Positions 4,916 to 32,926 of a stretch of 51,747 bases of DNA are shown in pieces (position 1 is the stretch's first letter; each line of letters starts with the position of its first letter). The translations under genes and the position numbers were made by a program. The stretch is from a virus. The notes under the pieces were generated by a model, which did not search any database, had not been told where the DNA came from, and was given only the letters and a program-made list of their open reading frames with translations. The stretch is taken from positions 1 to 51,747 of IMG/VR virus record IMGVR_UViG_3300030019_000045. One strand, written 5' to 3'.

Positions 4916-5687
4916 GAACTTACTCAAGAATCTAATTGGGGAAGCAAGAACTGCAAAGGGTCTGGTTGATACCAAGGCTCTGATCGCAGCAATCGAACAG
5001 GGATATCTCCCAGAGAATCCCATCGAGTACAAGAAGAAGAAGACGTTCGCTCCATCATCGCTAGTATACGGTTCAGGTGAATGCCCCCGTTATTGGTACC
5101 TAGCATTTGATGGTGGAGAGTTCGAATCGGATAATTCTCCGCAGGAAATTGCTAACATGCAAAATGGCTCTTACAGCCATGAGAGAATCCAGAAGGCAGT
5201 AGCGAAGACGGCAATTGTCGCTTCCATTGAGAAGAAGATCATCAACAGTGATCCTCCTATCTTCGGTTACCAAGACCTTGAACTGTTCTGGAATGATGGC
5301 AACCTCCCTGTCGAGATTAAGACGACAAGAGATATCGCCTTTCAGCGAAGGAAGGACGCAGGTAATGCGCTCCCTTATCACCGTTCGCAGCTATTGATCT
5401 ACATGTACATTCAAGGCTTTGACCTTGGTGTAATCCTTTATGAGAACAAGGATACTCATGAACTCCTCGCTATTCCTCTGGAAATGACCCCAGAGAACAA
5501 GGCGTGGGTCGAGAGTGCATTTGGATGGATGCGTACTGTGCATAAGGCTTGGGTTGACCGCAAGTTGCCCAAGAAGAATTACCGTGCCAATTCCAAGATT
5601 TGCAAGTCATGTCCTCTATCAAAGGTATGTGCAACATTGCCCCTCGAAGGCGATATCGCACTGCCAGCTTTGGAGAAGCTTGGATGA
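4908..5687 (+). CDS. Cas4-like PD-(D/E)XK exonuclease with Fe-S cluster
   Basis: A RecB-family nuclease of the Cas4 type, expected to resect DNA ends for recombination. Four cysteines match the Cas4 iron-sulfur arrangement: C59 in GECPRYW, then C232, C235 and C241 in ICKSCPLSKVC. Nuclease residues are visible as H91, a likely metal-binding Asp near 123, EIKTT (E136, K138), and the QLLIY motif starting at Q161. Its 259 residues exceed a minimal Cas4. There is no CRISPR array or cas1/cas2 in the window, so a replication or recombination role is the natural reading. Confidence 0.85.
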   Translation: MAKNLLKNLIGEARTAKGLVDTKALIAAIEQGYLPENPIEYKKKKTFAPSSLVYGSGECPRYWYLAFDGGEFESDNSPQEIANMQNGSYSHERIQKAVAKTAIVASIEKKIINSDPPIFGYQDLELFWNDGNLPVEIKTTRDIAFQRRKDAGNALPYHRSQLLIYMYIQGFDLGVILYENKDTHELLAIPLEMTPENKAWVESAFGWMRTVHKAWVDRKLPKKNYRANSKICKSCPLSKVCATLPLEGDIALPALEKLG

Positions 5688-5968
5688 AGCAATGTGATTG
5701 GTGCCACACCCCATTCTCCCCGACAGTGAGCTTTCAAATTTATTGTTCGGAAGAATGCCGTACAGCGGCAACCAAACACAACCAAGCTATAAAGAGCAAA
5801 GAGCGCAAGCTTAATCGACGTAAGACAAAGAAACGCATTTGTGCAAATAGCGATTGTACAAATGTGCTTTCTGTCTACAACGAATCTAAGTATTGCGCTT
5901 CTTGCTATTTCTCAGAGCATGTCGTCCTCCGTGAAGTAGAGAACCTAAAGAGGAGACACAATGCCTAG
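5684..5968 (+). CDS. Double zinc-finger basic protein
   Basis: A 94-residue protein starting at the ATG of an ATGA overlap with the Cas4-like gene; a longer upstream frame starting at 5600 is not needed. Two cysteine modules are visible: CDWC with YCSEEC, and CANSDC with YCASC. They are separated by a very Lys/Arg-rich linker. This is consistent with a nucleic-acid-binding zinc protein. No specific family is recognised. Confidence 0.65.
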   Translation: MKQCDWCHTPFSPTVSFQIYCSEECRTAATKHNQAIKSKERKLNRRKTKKRICANSDCTNVLSVYNESKYCASCYFSEHVVLREVENLKRRHNA

Positions 5969-6551
5969 AATCACAAAGATTCTCAACGTAGCACCGCCAT
6001 CGAGTTTTGTTAGTATTGACGCTAGCACTAACTCGATGGCATTTGCTATTTATACGGACGGTAAGATCATTCGCTACGGCAAGATCAAGTTCAATGGCAA
6101 TAACATCAACGAGAAGATGAAAGACATCTCGAACAAAACAAAGGCATTCTTTGACAAGCTGCCTAATGGTACAATTATTGTGATCGAAGATACGATTTAT
6201 ACGAACTCACACAATACTGCTGCACAATTGGCAAAGGCTCAGGGAGCATTGCTGGGTGGAGCATTCTTGGGTGGGGCCAAGGAATCGCATTGCGTTAGCC
6301 CTATTGCGTGGCAGTCATTCATTGGTACACGCCTTTTGACAGCGGCAGAGAAAGCAGCCATCAAGAAGGCAACTCCCAATAAGTCTGCCGCTTGGTACAA
6401 GGCCAAGGAACGTGACATTCGTAAGCACAGGACAATCGACACCATGAACAAGACCTACGGGACTAACGTGGATGACGATGACGTTGCTGATGCAATGGGA
6501 ATCGCAACATTCGCCGCAAGCAATTGGGGCAAGGTAATCAAGGAGAAGTGA
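5961..6551 (+). CDS. RuvC-like Holliday junction resolvase
   Basis: Predicted endonuclease that cuts four-way DNA junctions so that recombined DNA can be packaged. The RNase H-fold acidic residues are in place: D20 in VSIDAS, E76 in IIVIEDT, and the DDDDVADAMG cluster at 171-180. Its 196 residues are close to RuvC. It lies downstream of the recombinase and nuclease genes and just upstream of the terminase genes, which suits a junction-clearing role before packaging. Confidence 0.85.
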   Translation: MPRITKILNVAPPSSFVSIDASTNSMAFAIYTDGKIIRYGKIKFNGNNINEKMKDISNKTKAFFDKLPNGTIIVIEDTIYTNSHNTAAQLAKAQGALLGGAFLGGAKESHCVSPIAWQSFIGTRLLTAAEKAAIKKATPNKSAAWYKAKERDIRKHRTIDTMNKTYGTNVDDDDVADAMGIATFAASNWGKVIKEK

Positions 6552-6694
6552 TGGTAGCAAAGCTATATGACAGCCCAGCGTTCCTCCGTCGTCGCTATGT
6601 AATGGAGCGTCGTACGTTGAAGGATATTGCTGAGGAATGCGACACAAGCATTCAGACGATTAGTCGCAAGCTCAAGGAAGCAGGGCTACGATGA
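6551..6694 (+). CDS. Small helix-turn-helix protein
   Basis: A 47-residue frame with a TGATG junction to the resolvase and an ATGA junction to the next gene. The segment RTLKDIAEECDTSIQTISRK has the spacing of a helix-turn-helix, and the protein is rich in Arg and Lys. It probably binds DNA, perhaps in regulation or packaging-site recognition next to the terminase. The coupling on both sides is the main evidence that it is a gene. Confidence 0.7.
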   Translation: MVAKLYDSPAFLRRRYVMERRTLKDIAEECDTSIQTISRKLKEAGLR

Positions 6695-7203
6695 CAGACC
6701 TCGCAGAACACTTGGATGAAGTCAACACAGTTGCCGCAGAATACCTCAAGGGAAAGAGTGAGACACAGATTTCCACTGAACTAGATATTCCAAGGCACAG
6801 GGTTGTCACCCTCGTCAAGGAATGGAAGGTCATGGCTTCCAACTCTGATGCTGTACGGGTCAGGGCAAGAGAAGCACTGGCTGGTGCCGATCAGCACTAC
6901 TCCCAGTTGATCAAGGAAGCATACGACATCATGGAGGATGCTAAGAATGCAGACGCCCTTGGTGCCCGTACTGGTGCATTGAAACTGATCCTTGACATTG
7001 AGAAGTCTCGTATTGAGATGTTGCAGAAGGCAGGACTACTTGAGAACCGTGAGCTAGCTGAGAAGATGCTGGAAACGGAAGCCAAGCAGGCAGCCATCAT
7101 GAGGATCATCACAGAGGTCGTTAGCGAGTGTGCTCACTGTAAGCCAAAGGTATTGCAGCGCATGGCGGGTATCGGTAAGGAAGCTGTGATCATCGATGAG
7201 TGA
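6691..7203 (+). CDS. Probable terminase small subunit
   Basis: A 170-residue protein with an N-terminal helix-turn-helix (about 20-47, STELDIPRHRVVTLVKEW) and a long helical middle with coiled-coil character. This is the usual layout of small terminase subunits, which recognise the packaging site and load the large subunit. It lies directly upstream of the large terminase with an 8-base overlap. The assignment rests on fold pattern and position, not on a family signature. Confidence 0.65.
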   Translation: MTDLAEHLDEVNTVAAEYLKGKSETQISTELDIPRHRVVTLVKEWKVMASNSDAVRVRAREALAGADQHYSQLIKEAYDIMEDAKNADALGARTGALKLILDIEKSRIEMLQKAGLLENRELAEKMLETEAKQAAIMRIITEVVSECAHCKPKVLQRMAGIGKEAVIIDE

Positions 7204-8986
7204 CATGGACTTCTCAGAGTTCTTTGTCGCTCTTGACGACAACCCTTTTGAGGAAGACCCCGTAGAACTAGATACGTTCTTGGGACCGAACTTCCTGAAC
7301 CAACCACCCCTGTCAGAAATTCAACGAGATATGGTTGAGGCCATGTCCCAGATTTATCGTGTCCAAGACCTAGAGCGCCTTATGGGACGTGAAAGAGGCA
7401 GGGCACACTACAAGAAGTACACCAAGAACGAAATCGTCCTCGCATTGGGCAAGGGTAGCGGTAAGGACTATACGTCCACAATTGGCTGTGCTTACATGGT
7501 ATACAAGCTGTTGTGTCTGAAAGACCCAGCAAAGTACTTCGGCAAGCCTCCCGGTGACGCCATTGACCTTATCAACATCGCTATCAATGCAGAGCAGGCG
7601 AAGAACGTTTTCTTCAAGCGCTTCAAGGACTTGATCAAGCGTTGTCCATGGTTCGCTGGCAAGTACAACCCCACCATCATCGCTGTTGAATTCATCAAGA
7701 ATGTCACGGTATACTCTGGACACTCCGAGCGTGAGAGCCATGAGGGACTGAACCTCATCCTCGCAATCCTTGACGAGATTTCTGGTTTCGCCCAGACATC
7801 CAATACAGGCAATGAGCAGGCCAAGACTGGTGATGCTATCTACAAGATGTTCCGCGCTTCTGTAGACTCCCGTTTCGATGAGATTGGAAAGGTCATTCTA
7901 CTTTCCTTCCCTCGTTACAAGGGTGACTTCATTTCCGAGCGTTACGACAAGGTAGTGCGTGAGAAGAAGACTTACGAATTCACACACACATTTAAGGTCA
8001 ATGAGGAACTGCCAGACGACACTGAGGGAAACACCTTCACAATTGCGTGGGAAGAGGATGAGGTAGTCAGCTACGCCATTGACGGAGTGTTCGCATTGAA
8101 GGCACCTTCGTGGAAGGTTAACCCCACCAAGACGATCAATTCGTACAAGCGTAACTTCCTAGAAGACCCCGGTGACGCGCTACAGCGTTTCGCTTGTATG
8201 GGACAGTCCTACACGGATGCGTTCATCAAGAACATCCCAGCCCTGCGAGATTCTATGGTCATTCGTAATCCAATTGACGGCGTCAATCGTGTTGACCAGT
8301 CATGGGTACCTAATCCAGATATCAAGTACTTCCTCCATGCCGACCTTGCCCAGAAGCAGGACCGTGCAGCGGTGGCGGTAGCCCATGTGAACAAGTGGGT
8401 CAAGACTGGACAGTTCAATGACTACGAACAGGTTGTCCCTGAGGTTGTCGTAGACATGGTTGCTTACTGGGAGCCTAAGCCGGGGCAGCCAATCGATTTG
8501 AAGCAAGTACGTAGTTGGATCGTGGGCCTACGTAGACGTGGGGTGAACATCGGAATTGTCACCTTCGACCGTTGGAACTCTCTCGATACGCAGATGGAAC
8601 TCAACAGACTTGGAGTCAATACTGAGACCTTGAGTGTCGCCTTGAAACATTACGACGATCTTGCTATGCTGGTCTATGAGCATCGTGTCAAGATGCCAGC
8701 CAACGACATCCTCTTCGATGAGCTTAGTCAACTACGTATTGTGTCGAACACACAGGTTGACCACCCTCGCAAGGGAAGCAAGGACTTGGCTGACGCCGTG
8801 GCTGGTGCAGTCTACAACTGCATTACCCGTAGTCCGAAGCAGGTTAACGACACAGTTGACATCGTGGACTATGATGATGTACGCTTGAAGCGAAAGATGG
8901 GGGTTGGGGGGAATGATAGTATTCAAACAAAACCTCCAATGCCTTCTGAAATTGAAGAGTATCTATCGAGTATTGGTGCTCTTTAA
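7196..8986 (+). CDS. terL: Terminase large subunit
   Basis: ATP-driven DNA packaging motor with a nuclease domain that cuts the concatemer. The ATPase half shows Walker A GKGSGKD (85-91) and Walker B LILAILDE (187-194) with the adjacent catalytic Glu. The RNase H-like nuclease half shows candidate metal-binding acids at D383 (FLHADLA), D458 (VTFDRW) and D530/D533 (SKDLADAV). At 596 residues it is full length. A second ATG at 7205 is possible, but the first gives the usual overlap with the small subunit. Confidence 0.93.
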   Translation: MSDMDFSEFFVALDDNPFEEDPVELDTFLGPNFLNQPPLSEIQRDMVEAMSQIYRVQDLERLMGRERGRAHYKKYTKNEIVLALGKGSGKDYTSTIGCAYMVYKLLCLKDPAKYFGKPPGDAIDLINIAINAEQAKNVFFKRFKDLIKRCPWFAGKYNPTIIAVEFIKNVTVYSGHSERESHEGLNLILAILDEISGFAQTSNTGNEQAKTGDAIYKMFRASVDSRFDEIGKVILLSFPRYKGDFISERYDKVVREKKTYEFTHTFKVNEELPDDTEGNTFTIAWEEDEVVSYAIDGVFALKAPSWKVNPTKTINSYKRNFLEDPGDALQRFACMGQSYTDAFIKNIPALRDSMVIRNPIDGVNRVDQSWVPNPDIKYFLHADLAQKQDRAAVAVAHVNKWVKTGQFNDYEQVVPEVVVDMVAYWEPKPGQPIDLKQVRSWIVGLRRRGVNIGIVTFDRWNSLDTQMELNRLGVNTETLSVALKHYDDLAMLVYEHRVKMPANDILFDELSQLRIVSNTQVDHPRKGSKDLADAVAGAVYNCITRSPKQVNDTVDIVDYDDVRLKRKMGVGGNDSIQTKPPMPSEIEEYLSSIGAL

Positions 8987-10700: not shown

Positions 10701-10782
10701 GGGTCGTCGCTCTTGGTAGAGCAGGGAGTCTGTAAAACTCTCGTCATTATGTACATTGGAAGTTCGATTCTTTCACGGCTCA
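10701..10782 (+). tRNA. tRNA-Tyr (GTA)
   Basis: Class II tRNA with a variable region of about 16 bases. Loop CTGTAAA gives GTA; D stem GCTC/GAGC; T arm GGAAG-TTCGATT-CTTTC; acceptor GGGTCGT/ACGGCTC. Confidence 0.88.
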
Positions 10783-10896
10783 CGCAAGCAGGAAAACTAA
10801 GACTGTGCATGGTCATTGGTTGTAATACCATCCTGTAGCTCCACATCTTGACCGCAATCTGGGCTTTAGTTGGCATACGAAAGCAGGATTGTTTAA

Positions 10897-13424: not shown

Positions 13425-13771
13425 GGGCCATCCCGGTTTTGACAGGTATGGAAAATCTAAATAGCGGCCAGAAACGGATCACATTCTATAAAGTGGTCAA
13501 ACAAATAAATGCTACCGATGAGGTAACAGAGGCTATGAAGGGTGTTGACGCATTCATTGAGTCAGTACTCTCCGGTGCGGACCAGCTAGCGCTCGTCTGA
13601 CAAGCCAAGGGTAAAGGCAGCCCTAGTCAATCAAATGTCTAAGGTGCAGTAAAAGGTTGTCCAACCTAAATGGACTGGTGGAGTGTGGCGGAAGCTACCC
13701 CGTATTACAATGGCCGTATAACTGTTTAGCTGGAACATATTTGGACGCGGGTTCGACTCCCGCATGGTCCA
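13425..13771 (+). ncRNA. ssrA: tmRNA (transfer-messenger RNA)
   Basis: Rescues stalled ribosomes and tags the unfinished protein for destruction. The tRNA-like ends pair perfectly (GGGCCAT with ATGGTCC), and the T arm is GCGGG-TTCGACT-CCCGC. The tag frame runs 13511-13600, from a GCT resume codon to TGA. It encodes 29 residues beginning ATDEVT and ending LALV. From memory, a related mycobacteriophage (Bxz1) tag also begins ATD and ends ALV, which supports the frame. The tag is long compared with usual bacterial tags. No CCA is encoded. Confidence 0.93.
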
Positions 13772-13883
13772 CAAACGCAGAGTCTCATGGTGGGTTTGCC
13801 CCAAGTCCGTCAGATGAGAGACGAAGCGGGGGAGTGCAATAAAGCTTACGACTTGGGTGACGACTAGCTGAGCAATCCCTAAC

Positions 13884-16613: not shown

Positions 16614-16684
16614 GGTCCGTTAGGTCAATGGTAGACTTCCTCGTTTACACCGAGGCTACAACAGTTCAATTCTGTTACGGACTA
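16614..16684 (+). tRNA. tRNA-Val (TAC)
   Basis: Acceptor GGTCCGT/ACGGACT, D stem GGTC/GACT, anticodon stem CCTCG/CGAGG with loop TTTACAC (TAC), T arm AACAG-TTCAATT-CTGTT. Confidence 0.92.
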
Positions 16685-16686
16685 CG

Positions 16687-16761
16687 GAAGAAAGTCATGG
16701 GTTCGAATCCCATTCGTCAGGCTCACAAGGCAAGTCGATAGTTCAGCGGAAGAACGTCTTC
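16687..16761 (+). ncRNA. Circularly permuted tRNA-like unit 1
   Basis: Reads in the order 3' half then 5' half. A closing stem GAAGA (16687) pairs with TCTTC (16757) at the anticodon-stem position. Next comes a 5-base variable segment and T arm ATGGG-TTCGAAT-CCCAT. An acceptor-like stem pairs only partly (TCGTCAG with AAGTCGA), and the D arm is TA-GTTC-AGCGGAA-GAAC. Read linearly, neither this D arm nor this T arm finds partners. It fills the gap after tRNA-Val with a 2-base spacer. Confidence 0.5.
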
Positions 16762-16764
16762 AAC

Positions 16765-16843
16765 AGGAGAGTCACCGGTTCGAATCCGGTATGTATGCGG
16801 CCATTTAGTTGAGTGTACATTAGCTTAGTGGAAAAGTACTCCT
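16765..16843 (+). ncRNA. Circularly permuted tRNA-like unit 2
   Basis: The 3' half lies first: AGGAG, AGTC, T arm ACCGG-TTCGAAT-CCGGT, and acceptor strand ATGTATG. A loop of about 16 bases follows, then acceptor strand TGTACAT, D arm TA-GCTT-AGTGGAA-AAGT, and CTCCT. All seven acceptor pairs and all five anticodon-stem pairs form between the swapped halves. It sits 3 bases after unit 1 and 4 bases before tRNA-Leu(TAG). No usable anticodon loop is visible, so it is more likely a tRNA mimic than a decoding tRNA. Confidence 0.6.
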
Positions 16844-16847
16844 TAAT

Positions 16848-16921
16848 GGTCCATTAGCCCAATTGGCAGAGGCGCTAGATTTAGGTTCTAGAGGTTGTGG
16901 GTTCGACTCCCATATGGACTA
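16848..16921 (+). tRNA. tRNA-Leu (TAG) with short variable loop
   Basis: Acceptor GGTCCAT/ATGGACT, anticodon stem CTAGA/TCTAG with loop TTTAGGT (TAG), T arm GTGGG-TTCGACT-CCCAT. The variable region is again AGGTT. Confidence 0.9.
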
Positions 16922-17025
16922 CTGGGAAGTGCTTGACACTATAAGATTTTGCAGGTCGAAGCTGAGTGTACACGAAGCTTAGATACCACACTTTCAAATC
17001 TGTCTTTCTGACTCTCCCAATCAAT

Positions 17026-17100: not shown

Positions 17101-17209
17101 GAGCTAGATGCGATAGACTTGAGTTACTTCGGCCCATGGCGGGCCACCCATATAATGAATGAGATAAAGTCGGTTCGATTCCGACAGTAAACACTTAGGT
17201 CGCCCTTTT
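17101..17209 (+). ncRNA. Y-RNA-like RNA with a linear tRNA-like body
   Basis: Begins two bases after tRNA-Leu(GAG). It carries GATGCGATAG then TTGAGTTACTTC on the 5' side and AACACTTAGGTCGCC followed by TTTT on the 3' side. These match the RNAs at 25228 and 25438. Between them lie a D-like arm (GGCC/GGCC), an anticodon-like arm and T arm GTCGG-TTCGATT-CCGAC. Its inner Ro-type helix pairs less well than in the other copies. Confidence 0.5.
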
Positions 17210-17246
17210 CTCTAGCTCTTAACTTCCACCACGACGAAGGATCACT

Positions 17247-18091: not shown

Positions 18092-19030
18092 ATGGGTGGT
18101 GGAAGTTGGTCGGCAGCGGCCTACAGCGCAGTGAGCGCAACGCGAGCCGCAACAGGAAGTGCATTCGCATACGACAGGACCGTCAAGGCTACTGGTCGCT
18201 ATGAGGCACATGAGCTTGTTGACGTAAAGAAGCTCAACAAGGCTGGCGAGAACATTCGTGAGTCCCTTGACACCGTGGAGCATCCCTTCACGAAGCCGAT
18301 GGTCATTGGTTTTGACCAGACCGGCTCCATGGGTTCGATTCCCGGTGAGATGCAGAAGAAGCTCAACACTGTCTTCGATCTGACCACTGCAAAGGGCGTT
18401 GAGGACGTTCAGATCGCAGTTGCCGCTTACGGTGACGCTGCGAATGATGAGCGTGTTCCGTTGCAGATGAGCCAGTTCGAATCTGGTATCAAGATCGATG
18501 AGGCGCTGGACGTTCTGTTCCTTGAGGGTCATGGTGGTGGAAACAGTGGAGAGACCTCCAACCTGTTGTTCTACTACCTCGCATACCACACCCGCACTGA
18601 CGCTTTCGACAAGCGTGGTGTCAAGGGCAAGGTCTACCTCATCGCTGATGAGAAGCAGATTCCGATTACAGCCGCACACATCGAGAAGTACATCGGTGAG
18701 CAGCCTCTCGGTGACCTGTCCTTCGAGGGTATCGCAGCGGCAGCTACAGAGAAGTGGGATGTCACAATCCTCCTGATCAACAACTCCGCAGCCAAGTACC
18801 AGCGTTCGGAAGAGTTCTACGGAAATCTCTTCGGACCTGACAATGTGGTTATCGTTCAGGATGTCTCGGCAATTCCTGAGATGATCGCCGGTCTCTTCGC
18901 TTACGATCTTGGTCGTAGCATTGATGACATCAAGGCTGATCTGTCCGCAACTGTCGGAAACGCAATCGCTGTTCGGGTAACCGACGCTATTGTCAAGCGC
19001 TCGGGTACGAAGAGTGCAGCCCTCCGCTGA
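18092..19030 (+). CDS. von Willebrand factor A domain protein
   Basis: A 312-residue protein with an AAGGAGA ribosome site. A metal-ion-dependent adhesion site begins at VIGFDQTGSMG (71-81), with D75, T77 and S79 in the DxTxS form. HGGGNSGETSN (about 149-159) may supply the third MIDAS loop, and VYLIADEKQ the fourth strand. vWA domains hold partner proteins through a metal ion. It lies between the kinase-like gene and the adenylosuccinate synthetase, near the Ro60 gene, which has a second vWA domain. Partner unknown. Confidence 0.82.
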   Translation: MGGGSWSAAAYSAVSATRAATGSAFAYDRTVKATGRYEAHELVDVKKLNKAGENIRESLDTVEHPFTKPMVIGFDQTGSMGSIPGEMQKKLNTVFDLTTAKGVEDVQIAVAAYGDAANDERVPLQMSQFESGIKIDEALDVLFLEGHGGGNSGETSNLLFYYLAYHTRTDAFDKRGVKGKVYLIADEKQIPITAAHIEKYIGEQPLGDLSFEGIAAAATEKWDVTILLINNSAAKYQRSEEFYGNLFGPDNVVIVQDVSAIPEMIAGLFAYDLGRSIDDIKADLSATVGNAIAVRVTDAIVKRSGTKSAALR

Positions 19031-20126
19031 TATCGTTGTAGGTCTTGGATGGGGTGACGAGGGTAAAGGCGCAACAGTCGATGCCCTCGTTGCTCATTCC
19101 AATGCTGATCGTGTTGTCAGGTTCAATGGTGGACAGCAAGCTGCCCATAATGTGATCGCTAAGGGAATTCACCACACCTTTGCCAGCTATGGCTCGGGTA
19201 CGATGTCAGGAGTTCCTACTTGGATTAGTTCCTACTGCACGATCAACCCCGTAAACATCTTCAATGAGAAGTCCGCACTCATCAAGAAGGGATTCAATCC
19301 TGTCTTGAATGTGGACGGTAAGGCTCTTGTCACCACTGCTCTTCACGTCTTGGTCAATGTTATTCGTGAGGAAGCACGCGGCAAGGACAACCATGGAACA
19401 ACTGGGAATGGCTTTGGCGAGACCATTGATTACTCCCTGAGGTTCCCAGAGCTTGCACTGCGAGCAGAAGACTTCAAGCTTGGATTCAGCGCGGTATACC
19501 CAAAGATGCTGGCCCTCAGGGACTTCTACATCAGTGACGGTATGATCATTCCTGATCATCCCAACCTCAAGGATTCCAAGATGCAGTCGTTGGTGTGGTC
19601 AATGCTTCCAATGTTTAACCATTTCAATGTTGTCACTACTGTTGATCTGTTTGAAGAGTTGAGGCATGGTCATACGGTATTCGAGGGGGCACAGGGATTC
19701 GTCCTTGATGAGAACTTCGGGTTCAACCCTTACACCACATGGTCTACGACTACACCATCTAACGCTAGGGCAATCTTGCGTGAGGCAGGGGTAACAGATG
19801 TACACACAACCGGTTGCCTTCGCTCCTACGCAACTAGGCACGGTGCAGGACCGCTACCTCATGAGGGAGAGATTGGGTTCACTCCCGACGAACCTCATAA
19901 TACTACTGAATCCAGTATGGCTGGTGAGTTCAGGATTGCTCCGCACGATGTAGAGACTATTCAATGGGCTATTGATATGACCGATGTTGATTCATTGGCA
20001 GTCGGGCACTTGGATGTCTTTGATGGATTCATGACTCACGATGGGCTATTCCCACTTGACACATTCGGTAAGCCGATTAGGTTGAAGGCATGGGGACCAG
20101 CCAGAGAAGATCGCATGGTCATGTGA
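19014..20126 (+). CDS. Adenylosuccinate synthetase family (PurA/PurZ-like)
   Basis: GTP-dependent ligase joining aspartate to IMP or a related 6-oxopurine nucleotide. The motif GWGDEGKG keeps the catalytic Asp (D14), and RFNGGQQAAH keeps the catalytic His, although the usual GGHNAGH is altered. I chose GTG 19014, which gives a short N-terminus as in PurA; TTG 18990 is the alternative. About 371 residues is short against about 430 for PurA. Phage PurZ enzymes make the 2-aminoadenine precursor. As I recall, they lack this Asp, so ordinary AMP synthesis is the simpler reading. Confidence 0.85.
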   Translation: MQPSADIVVGLGWGDEGKGATVDALVAHSNADRVVRFNGGQQAAHNVIAKGIHHTFASYGSGTMSGVPTWISSYCTINPVNIFNEKSALIKKGFNPVLNVDGKALVTTALHVLVNVIREEARGKDNHGTTGNGFGETIDYSLRFPELALRAEDFKLGFSAVYPKMLALRDFYISDGMIIPDHPNLKDSKMQSLVWSMLPMFNHFNVVTTVDLFEELRHGHTVFEGAQGFVLDENFGFNPYTTWSTTTPSNARAILREAGVTDVHTTGCLRSYATRHGAGPLPHEGEIGFTPDEPHNTTESSMAGEFRIAPHDVETIQWAIDMTDVDSLAVGHLDVFDGFMTHDGLFPLDTFGKPIRLKAWGPAREDRMVM

Positions 20127-20137: not shown

Positions 20138-20218
20138 GATACGCTAGATGCGCAGGAATGGGTTACTTCTTTCATCCAAAAGCGAAACCACCTATTCCGA
20201 TTCTTTCACTGGCGTATT
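20138..20218 (+). ncRNA. Y-RNA-like RNA, small form
   Basis: Outer stem GATACGC/GCGTATT, internal loops, and an inner 8-bp stem GGAATGGG/CCTATTCC. The inner stem leads into GGGTTACTTC, which matches the conserved GAGTTACTTC of the other Y-like RNAs here. The 5' end coincides with the predicted start and the 3' end lies two bases before tRNA-Ser(CGA). It contains no tRNA-like module. Confidence 0.5.
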
Positions 20219-20412: not shown

Positions 20413-20495
20413 GGAAGACGATTTGTTCTGGGAACAACACATGCTGGAACCATGTTGGACGGTAACACGTTGGGGTTCGATTCCTCCTTCTTCCG
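20413..20495 (+). tRNA. tRNA-Ser (GGA)
   Basis: D arm TTGT/ACAA, anticodon stem ACATG/CATGT with loop CTGGAAC (GGA), long variable arm, T loop TTCGATT, discriminator G. The last acceptor pair is mismatched. Confidence 0.83.
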
Positions 20496-21751: not shown

Positions 21752-21754
21752 CGT

Positions 21755-21825
21755 GGTCCCTGTCCAGACGGTCTGGAAGCAGATTGCAACCCTGTTCATA
21801 GCGAGTTCGACTCTCGCAGGGACTT
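21755..21825 (+). tRNA. tRNA-Cys (GCA)
   Basis: Acceptor GGTCCCT/AGGGACT, D stem CCAG/CTGG, loop TTGCAAC (GCA), T arm GCGAG-TTCGACT-CTCGC. Confidence 0.87.
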
Positions 21826-22063: not shown

Positions 22064-22124
22064 CTTCTTATGAGTAGAAACCTGCTCATTTAACCATTCG
22101 ATGTATTCACGAAAGGGGACTTTT

Positions 22125-32783: not shown

Positions 32784-32854
32784 GGCGCATAGCAAAGCGG
32801 TAATGCATCCGGCTCTGACCCGGTAATTCGGGGGTTCGAATCCCTCTGTGCCTG
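32784..32854 (+). tRNA. tRNA-Gln (CTG)
   Basis: D stem GCA/TGC, anticodon loop CTCTGAC (CTG), T arm GGGGG-TTCGAAT-CCCTC, acceptor GGCGCAT/TGTGCCT with one mismatch. Confidence 0.87.
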
Positions 32855-32855
32855 C

Positions 32856-32926
32856 TGAGGTATAACATAATGGTAATGTAGGAGGTTTTGGCCCTCCGTA
32901 TTGGGGTTCGATTCCCTATACCTTAA
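32856..32926 (+). tRNA. tRNA-Gln (TTG)
   Basis: Acceptor TGAGGTA/TACCTTA, D stem ACAT/ATGT, anticodon stem GGAGG/CCTCC with loop TTTTGGC (TTG), T loop TTCGATT. Confidence 0.92.

Follow-up and report, generated by a model that had tools for sequence, protein, structure and literature searches.

Phage tRNA arrays are usually taken to consist of tRNA genes and the spacers between them, and TROVE/Ro60-family proteins are the protein partners of Y RNAs. The bacterial Y RNA with which we compare our locus is YrlA (Rfam family RF02553; structure 6CU1). Its basal stem holds Rsr/Ro60, its tRNA-like domain is a binding site for PNPase and a modification substrate of TruB and DusA (PMC8394870), and it has been suggested to act as a competitive inhibitor of an anticodon nuclease (PMC7790460). 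Phage Y RNAs are already known: as PMC12282133 cites them, Chen et al. (2014) reported Y RNAs in mycobacteriophages, and a Y RNA has also been proposed for a Listeria phage (PMC12282133). A sequence-only reading of our locus, which had named Y-RNA-type mimics and permuted tRNA genes as candidates and knew of no phage precedent, was therefore wrong on precedent as far as Y RNAs are concerned. In permuted tRNAs, the termini are bridged, a bulge-helix-bulge lies at the joint, and maturation proceeds by splicing through a circular RNA (PMC4090602). We describe here two adjacent elements, units 1 and 2, that are probably (at roughly 0.74) two copies of the tRNA-like module of a YrlA-type phage Y RNA, placed in a tRNA array without the Ro60-binding stem and acting as a Ro60-independent tRNA mimic.

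The window, by which we mean the whole stretch of DNA analyzed, corresponds to a 51.7-kb fragment of a phage in IMG/VR and has near-identical sister contigs, one of them 76 kb long. Its terminase is ~52% identical to that of Karimac-type Streptomyces phages, and, apart from single tRNAs, phage records yielded no related nucleotide sequence. ARAGORN predicted 28 tRNAs and a tmRNA, the latter of the ordinary one-piece type (13425-13772). Two of these tRNAs, both on the plus strand, border the region of interest: tRNA-Val(tac) upstream (16614-16684 or 16685; Rfam 60.3 bits) and tRNA-Leu(tag) downstream (16848-16922; Rfam 58.3 bits). The gap between them is filled exactly by the two units, in the order tRNA-Val, 2-nt spacer, unit 1 (16687-16761), AAC, unit 2 (16765-16843), TAAT, tRNA-Leu. 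Two T arms and two D arms with swapped halves, tiling the gap with 2-, 3- and 4-base spacers, had been proposed from the letters of the sequence, and our analysis recovered the same coordinates and spacers. Elsewhere in the window, a PurA-like 2-aminooxy adenylosuccinate synthetase gene (phrog_1211; 18990-20126) adjoins the gene of a phrog_2971 protein, a pair common to I3/Bxz1-type mycobacteriophages, and weak matches to the tRNA-Sec model at 20413-20494 and 21754-21825, where ARAGORN made no prediction, may be type II tRNAs, for example the missing tRNA-Ser.

Both units, on the plus strand, have the T arm before the D arm and are closed by a 5-bp stem in the position of the tRNA anticodon stem. 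Unit 1 is delimited by the stem GAAGA/TCTTC (16687-16691/16757-16761, 5/5 pairs), within which lie a T arm (16697-16713, 5/5 pairs), an acceptor-like hairpin (16714-16738), the dinucleotide TA (16739-16740) and a D arm (16741-16755, 4/4 pairs). Its acceptor is partial, as had been claimed for it along with the five closing pairs: TCG/CGA and interrupted pairs give 4/7 in register, and the stretch from T to D arm forms a further hairpin besides these. Unit 2 has the same order with more complete pairing, consisting of the closing stem AGGAG/CTCCT (16765-16769/16839-16843), a T arm of ACCGG-TTCGAAT-CCGGT (16774-16790), an acceptor-like hairpin of ATGTATG/TGTACAT that can be extended to 8 bp (16791-16820), TA (16821-16822) and a D arm of GCTT-AGTGGAA-AAGT (16823-16837); the seven acceptor and five anticodon-stem pairs previously read from it are all present (7/7 and 5/5). 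The T-loop TTCGAAT and the D-loop bases A14-R15-G18G19-A21 are intact in both.

When folded by itself, unit 1 adopts the permuted cloverleaf as its minimum free energy (MFE) structure; for unit 2, the permuted structure is less stable than the MFE structure by 3.3 kcal/mol. The latter value is at the edge of the range for the real tRNAs of this phage, 25/28 of which fall within 3.0 kcal/mol of their MFE (the other three resemble parsing failures). In a joint 162-nt RNA, a hairpin between the units (TCTTC-AACA-GGAGA) competes with both closing stems and is used by the unconstrained MFE structure, as would be expected if the D arm of unit 1, this hairpin (TCTTC/GGAGA) and the T arm of unit 2 were together one degenerate tRNA in ordinary linear order. 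Such a tRNA would have no acceptor stem pairs and an anticodon loop of 4 nt, would account for neither the outer T arm nor the outer D arm, scores under the Rfam tRNA cut-off and is not predicted by ARAGORN, and we consider it highly improbable.

To score the swapped order, we built a covariance model, CM R1, from 12 YrlA modules of eight Ro-encoding phages, with no window sequence in the alignment. Compensatory changes occur in 18/22 pairs of this alignment, and its covariation score is 0.616, compared with 0.187 in shuffles. Unit 1 was the best match in the window (51.7 bits, E 1.9e-17) and unit 2 the second best (37.0 bits, E 7e-12), with the boundaries that had been drawn by eye. The model also produces artefacts at side-by-side ordinary tRNAs, where a T arm is followed by the D arm of the neighboring tRNA and the permuted order is thereby imitated; many mid-score matches were of this kind (e.g. 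32820-32885) and were discarded. The highest-scoring artefact has 30.9 bits within the window and 45.2 bits among other phages. By score, unit 1 stands above all of them, whereas unit 2 falls within their range and is supported by its pairing instead. As a null for that pairing, we took nine phage sequences and, within each phage, joined the 3' half of each ordinary tRNA to the 5' halves of all the others, keeping the registers unchanged. Only 2/5474 swapped combinations reached the 7+5 pairs of unit 2, and 70/5474 reached the 4+5 pairs of unit 1. These frequencies bear on the possibility that the gap holds ordinary tRNA gene debris, in which a stray 3' half and a stray 5' half flank a chimeric tRNA (D arm of unit 1, T arm of unit 2) and the swapped pairing is left over by chance. 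Phage tRNA arrays do turn over, and a partial linear match to the Rfam tRNA model spans 16739-16790 (24.7 bits, under the cut-off of 29), but chance pairing of real tRNA halves at this level is rare and the units tile the gap exactly, with spacers of 2-4 nt, which makes debris an improbable source.

A direct search with the Rfam YrlA model gave a match to unit 1 of 21.8 bits in the swapped order, covering model positions 23-86 of 114, i.e., the tRNA-like module only. This score is under the gathering threshold of 69 bits; the tested phage Y RNAs that do have a Ro stem are also under that threshold, with a best score of 47 bits. The window encodes a TROVE/Ro60-family protein on the plus strand (22101-23636; PF05731, E 1.5e-15; phrog_850) that shares 46% identity with Ro-like proteins from Streptomyces phage pSt2308 and Arthrobacter phage Atuin. 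In most Ro-encoding actinophages that we examined, YrlA-like matches, often two modules, lie near the Ro gene, and most full-length phage Y RNAs examined have a Ro-stem motif, GATGCG...TACTTC, ~10-25 nt 5' of the module, together with a U-rich 3' strand. Four exact copies of this motif (searched as GATGCGN{8,22}TACTTC) occur in the window, at 17107, 20147, 25230 and 25446, where 0.02 would be expected. They lie scattered to either side of the Ro60 gene, and the loci of pSt2308, BRock, LuckySocke and Neville have 4-5 motifs each, in a cluster just upstream of Ro. The same pattern used by itself on viral contigs gave mostly chance matches, with high-scoring modules at 5/80 loci.

All four motif sites in the window fold into long closed stems on the plus strand. 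The RNA at 25222-25362 is a full-length Y RNA, with a Ro stem, T arm, acceptor hairpin and short D-like arm (fold z -4.0). The others are Y RNA-like: that at 17101-17218 has the Ro-stem motif and a T arm and no D arm (z -2.9), that at 20138-20218 has a Ro stem and no tRNA-like module (z -2.8), and that at 25440-25548 has the motif and no canonical T loop or recognizable tRNA-like module (z -2.3). The tRNA-Ile(aat) predicted by ARAGORN at 17122-17194 is probably a miscall of the Ro stem and T arm of the first of these three, and the GenBank annotations of tRNA-Ser(gct) in LuckySocke (10738-10811) and tRNA-Arg(tct) in VanLee (65454-65525) seem to be miscalls of the same kind.

None of the four motif copies in the window is located at units 1 and 2, and the sequences flanking them show no complementarity (z 0.0 and +1.4). 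Many other viral YrlA modules, by contrast, have strong flank complementarity corresponding to a Ro stem, with z values from -2.5 to -7.3. Because intact tRNA genes lie on both sides, there is no room for a Ro stem at this locus. Since the stem was looked for and is absent, we do not file the units as members of YrlA; the match to YrlA in swapped order, the presence of Ro60 and other Y RNAs in the genome, and the lack of a Ro stem together lead us to regard them as Y-RNA-type mimics.

A third stand-alone permuted module without a Ro stem is present on the plus strand at 26680-26751 (CM R1, 26.1 bits unfiltered). It has a closing stem of 5-6 bp (CTGAC/GTCGG), a T arm, an acceptor hairpin (8 bp, GAAA cap) and a D arm; its MFE structure is the permuted cloverleaf and its flanks are not complementary (z +0.7). 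A search of viral contigs for a T arm, a GNAA-capped hairpin and a D arm, in which the closing stem was not used, returned 109 places that could be parsed, 48 of them with a nearly fully paired acceptor and most of these outside ARAGORN tRNAs. A minority of the places adjoin tRNA genes and have no flank complementarity, and at least three further contigs of phages (L154, L269 and L302) thus contain Ro-stem-less modules. In the 135-kb viral contig L154, two modules exactly fill gaps in the order Phe, module, Pro, module, Ala, with an acceptor sealed by a GTAA tetraloop; L302 has one module 3 nt after tRNA-Asn, and in L269 a single module precedes a tRNA by 4 nt. The region of L154 from 5000 to 8700 is a dense array of 36 tRNAs, and further mid-score CM R1 matches in this contig resemble tRNA adjacency. 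No Ro homolog was found in the records of these three contigs, at least some of which are fragments.

Searches closer to home did not add further examples. The syntenic Val-Leu gap of Streptomyces phage Karimac showed no permuted units by eye, its CM R1 matches resembling tRNA adjacency. For the Val-Leu gap itself, viral contigs searched by way of the 277-aa, Ro and phrog_2971 genes held no divergent orthologs, only near-identical copies of this phage, and the 20 loci checked among terminase relatives had few tRNAs and no module that could be confirmed. Among the seven stand-alone modules parsed by hand, the closing-stem cells are paired in 35/35 cases, with several pair types per position; at least one acceptor in this set is out of register, and for three of the seven the closing stem played no part in their selection. 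The same architecture thus recurs with different sequences in unrelated phage contigs, which further argues against debris. The units could also be decaying former Y RNAs that have lost their Ro stems and their function, as the imperfect acceptor of unit 1 and the retention of other Ro-stem Y RNAs by this phage might suggest. However, all three stand-alone modules of the window have intact closing stems and tertiary-contact bases, and modules recur in contigs without a detected Ro gene, so that we regard decay as unlikely.

The swapped order, the cloverleaf pairing (7+5 in unit 2), a loop that bridges the termini like that in the permuted tRNAs of Cyanidioschyzon (PMC4090602) and the long acceptor loops of both units are also what a permuted tRNA gene would show, its ends being matured by RNase P and 3' processing and its anticodon halves spliced or ligated to yield a decoding tRNA. 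By inspection, however, neither closing stem is accompanied by a bulge-helix-bulge or by a 4-bp helix outside it, and the joined loop halves contain no U33 and no sensible anticodon (AAC + TAAT in unit 2). To our knowledge, the splicing endonuclease is absent from bacteria. An RNA ligase of the PF09414 or PF09511 families was not found in the 76-kb sister contig, although related phages have one, and a tRNA from unit 2 would start with T1-G72. Moreover, the acceptors of the equivalent modules at 26680 and in L154 are sealed by a GNRA tetraloop, indicating a closed end and not a leader-trailer junction. A permuted tRNA gene is therefore a very unlikely reading, and, by the features tested, the units are not decoding tRNAs. 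Of the two interpretations that had been offered for the locus, the Y-RNA-type mimic without a Ro stem is the one that our data favor, and the permuted tRNA gene is not.

We are considerably more confident in the structural assignment of units 1 and 2 as YrlA-type modules, which is very likely correct, than in the proposed function as Ro-independent mimics, for which we see about an even chance. The units would be co-transcribed with the flanking tRNAs and could be freed by RNase P cleavage at the 5' end of tRNA-Leu together with processing of the 3' end of tRNA-Val. Lacking both a free acceptor end and an anticodon loop, they could be neither charged nor used in decoding; because the tRNA elbow is kept, they most likely mimic tRNA. 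Their most likely role would be that of a Ro60-independent competitor or decoy during infection, and candidate binding partners are PNPase or tRNA-elbow enzymes, which recognize such a fold. More tentatively, and with somewhat less than even odds, the modules may represent a class of acceptor-sealed, anticodon-less tRNA decoys that have been freed from Ro60, occur as stand-alone genes in tRNA arrays, including those of phages without Ro60, are released by tRNA processing, and act on host proteins of tRNA binding or RNA decay (PNPase, for example) or on defences that target tRNAs.

In the open-licence literature, we found no reports of stand-alone modules without a Ro stem in tRNA arrays, and modules packed in this way between tRNA genes appear to be undescribed so far. 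If some spacers are acceptor-sealed tRNA mimics, then the gaps of these arrays encode RNAs that tRNA finders miss and, where Ro stems join a T arm, sometimes miscall as tRNAs. A module split from the Ro60-binding stem would also make the module's own role testable, for Y RNAs generally.

Our data indicate that the units resemble YrlA in the order of T arm, closed acceptor-like hairpin and D arm, in the elbow nucleotides, in the closing stem that replaces the anticodon stem and in the presence of a Ro60 gene in the same phage, and that they differ from it in lacking the Ro60-binding basal stem, in their direct tandem arrangement between tRNA genes and in their sub-threshold Rfam score. They share the module with the Y RNA-like elements of pSt2308, BRock, LuckySocke, Neville, VanLee, Sixama, Atuin and JustBecause (the source of CM R1), the Ro-encoding actinophages with which this phage groups by its Ro protein and tRNA arrays. 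Most elements of those phages have the GATGCG...TACTTC Ro stem and are located near the Ro gene, whereas units 1 and 2 have no such stem and lie 5 kb away from that gene. In the permuted tRNA genes of Cyanidioschyzon merolae and Thermofilum pendens, as in the units, the 3' half precedes the 5' half, but the units are found in a bacterial virus and have no bulge-helix-bulge, usable anticodon loop or detected ligase. Two-piece, permuted tmRNA genes likewise give rise to a circularly permuted tRNA-like RNA; the units differ from these in having no tag-peptide part, and the tmRNA of this phage is itself one-piece.
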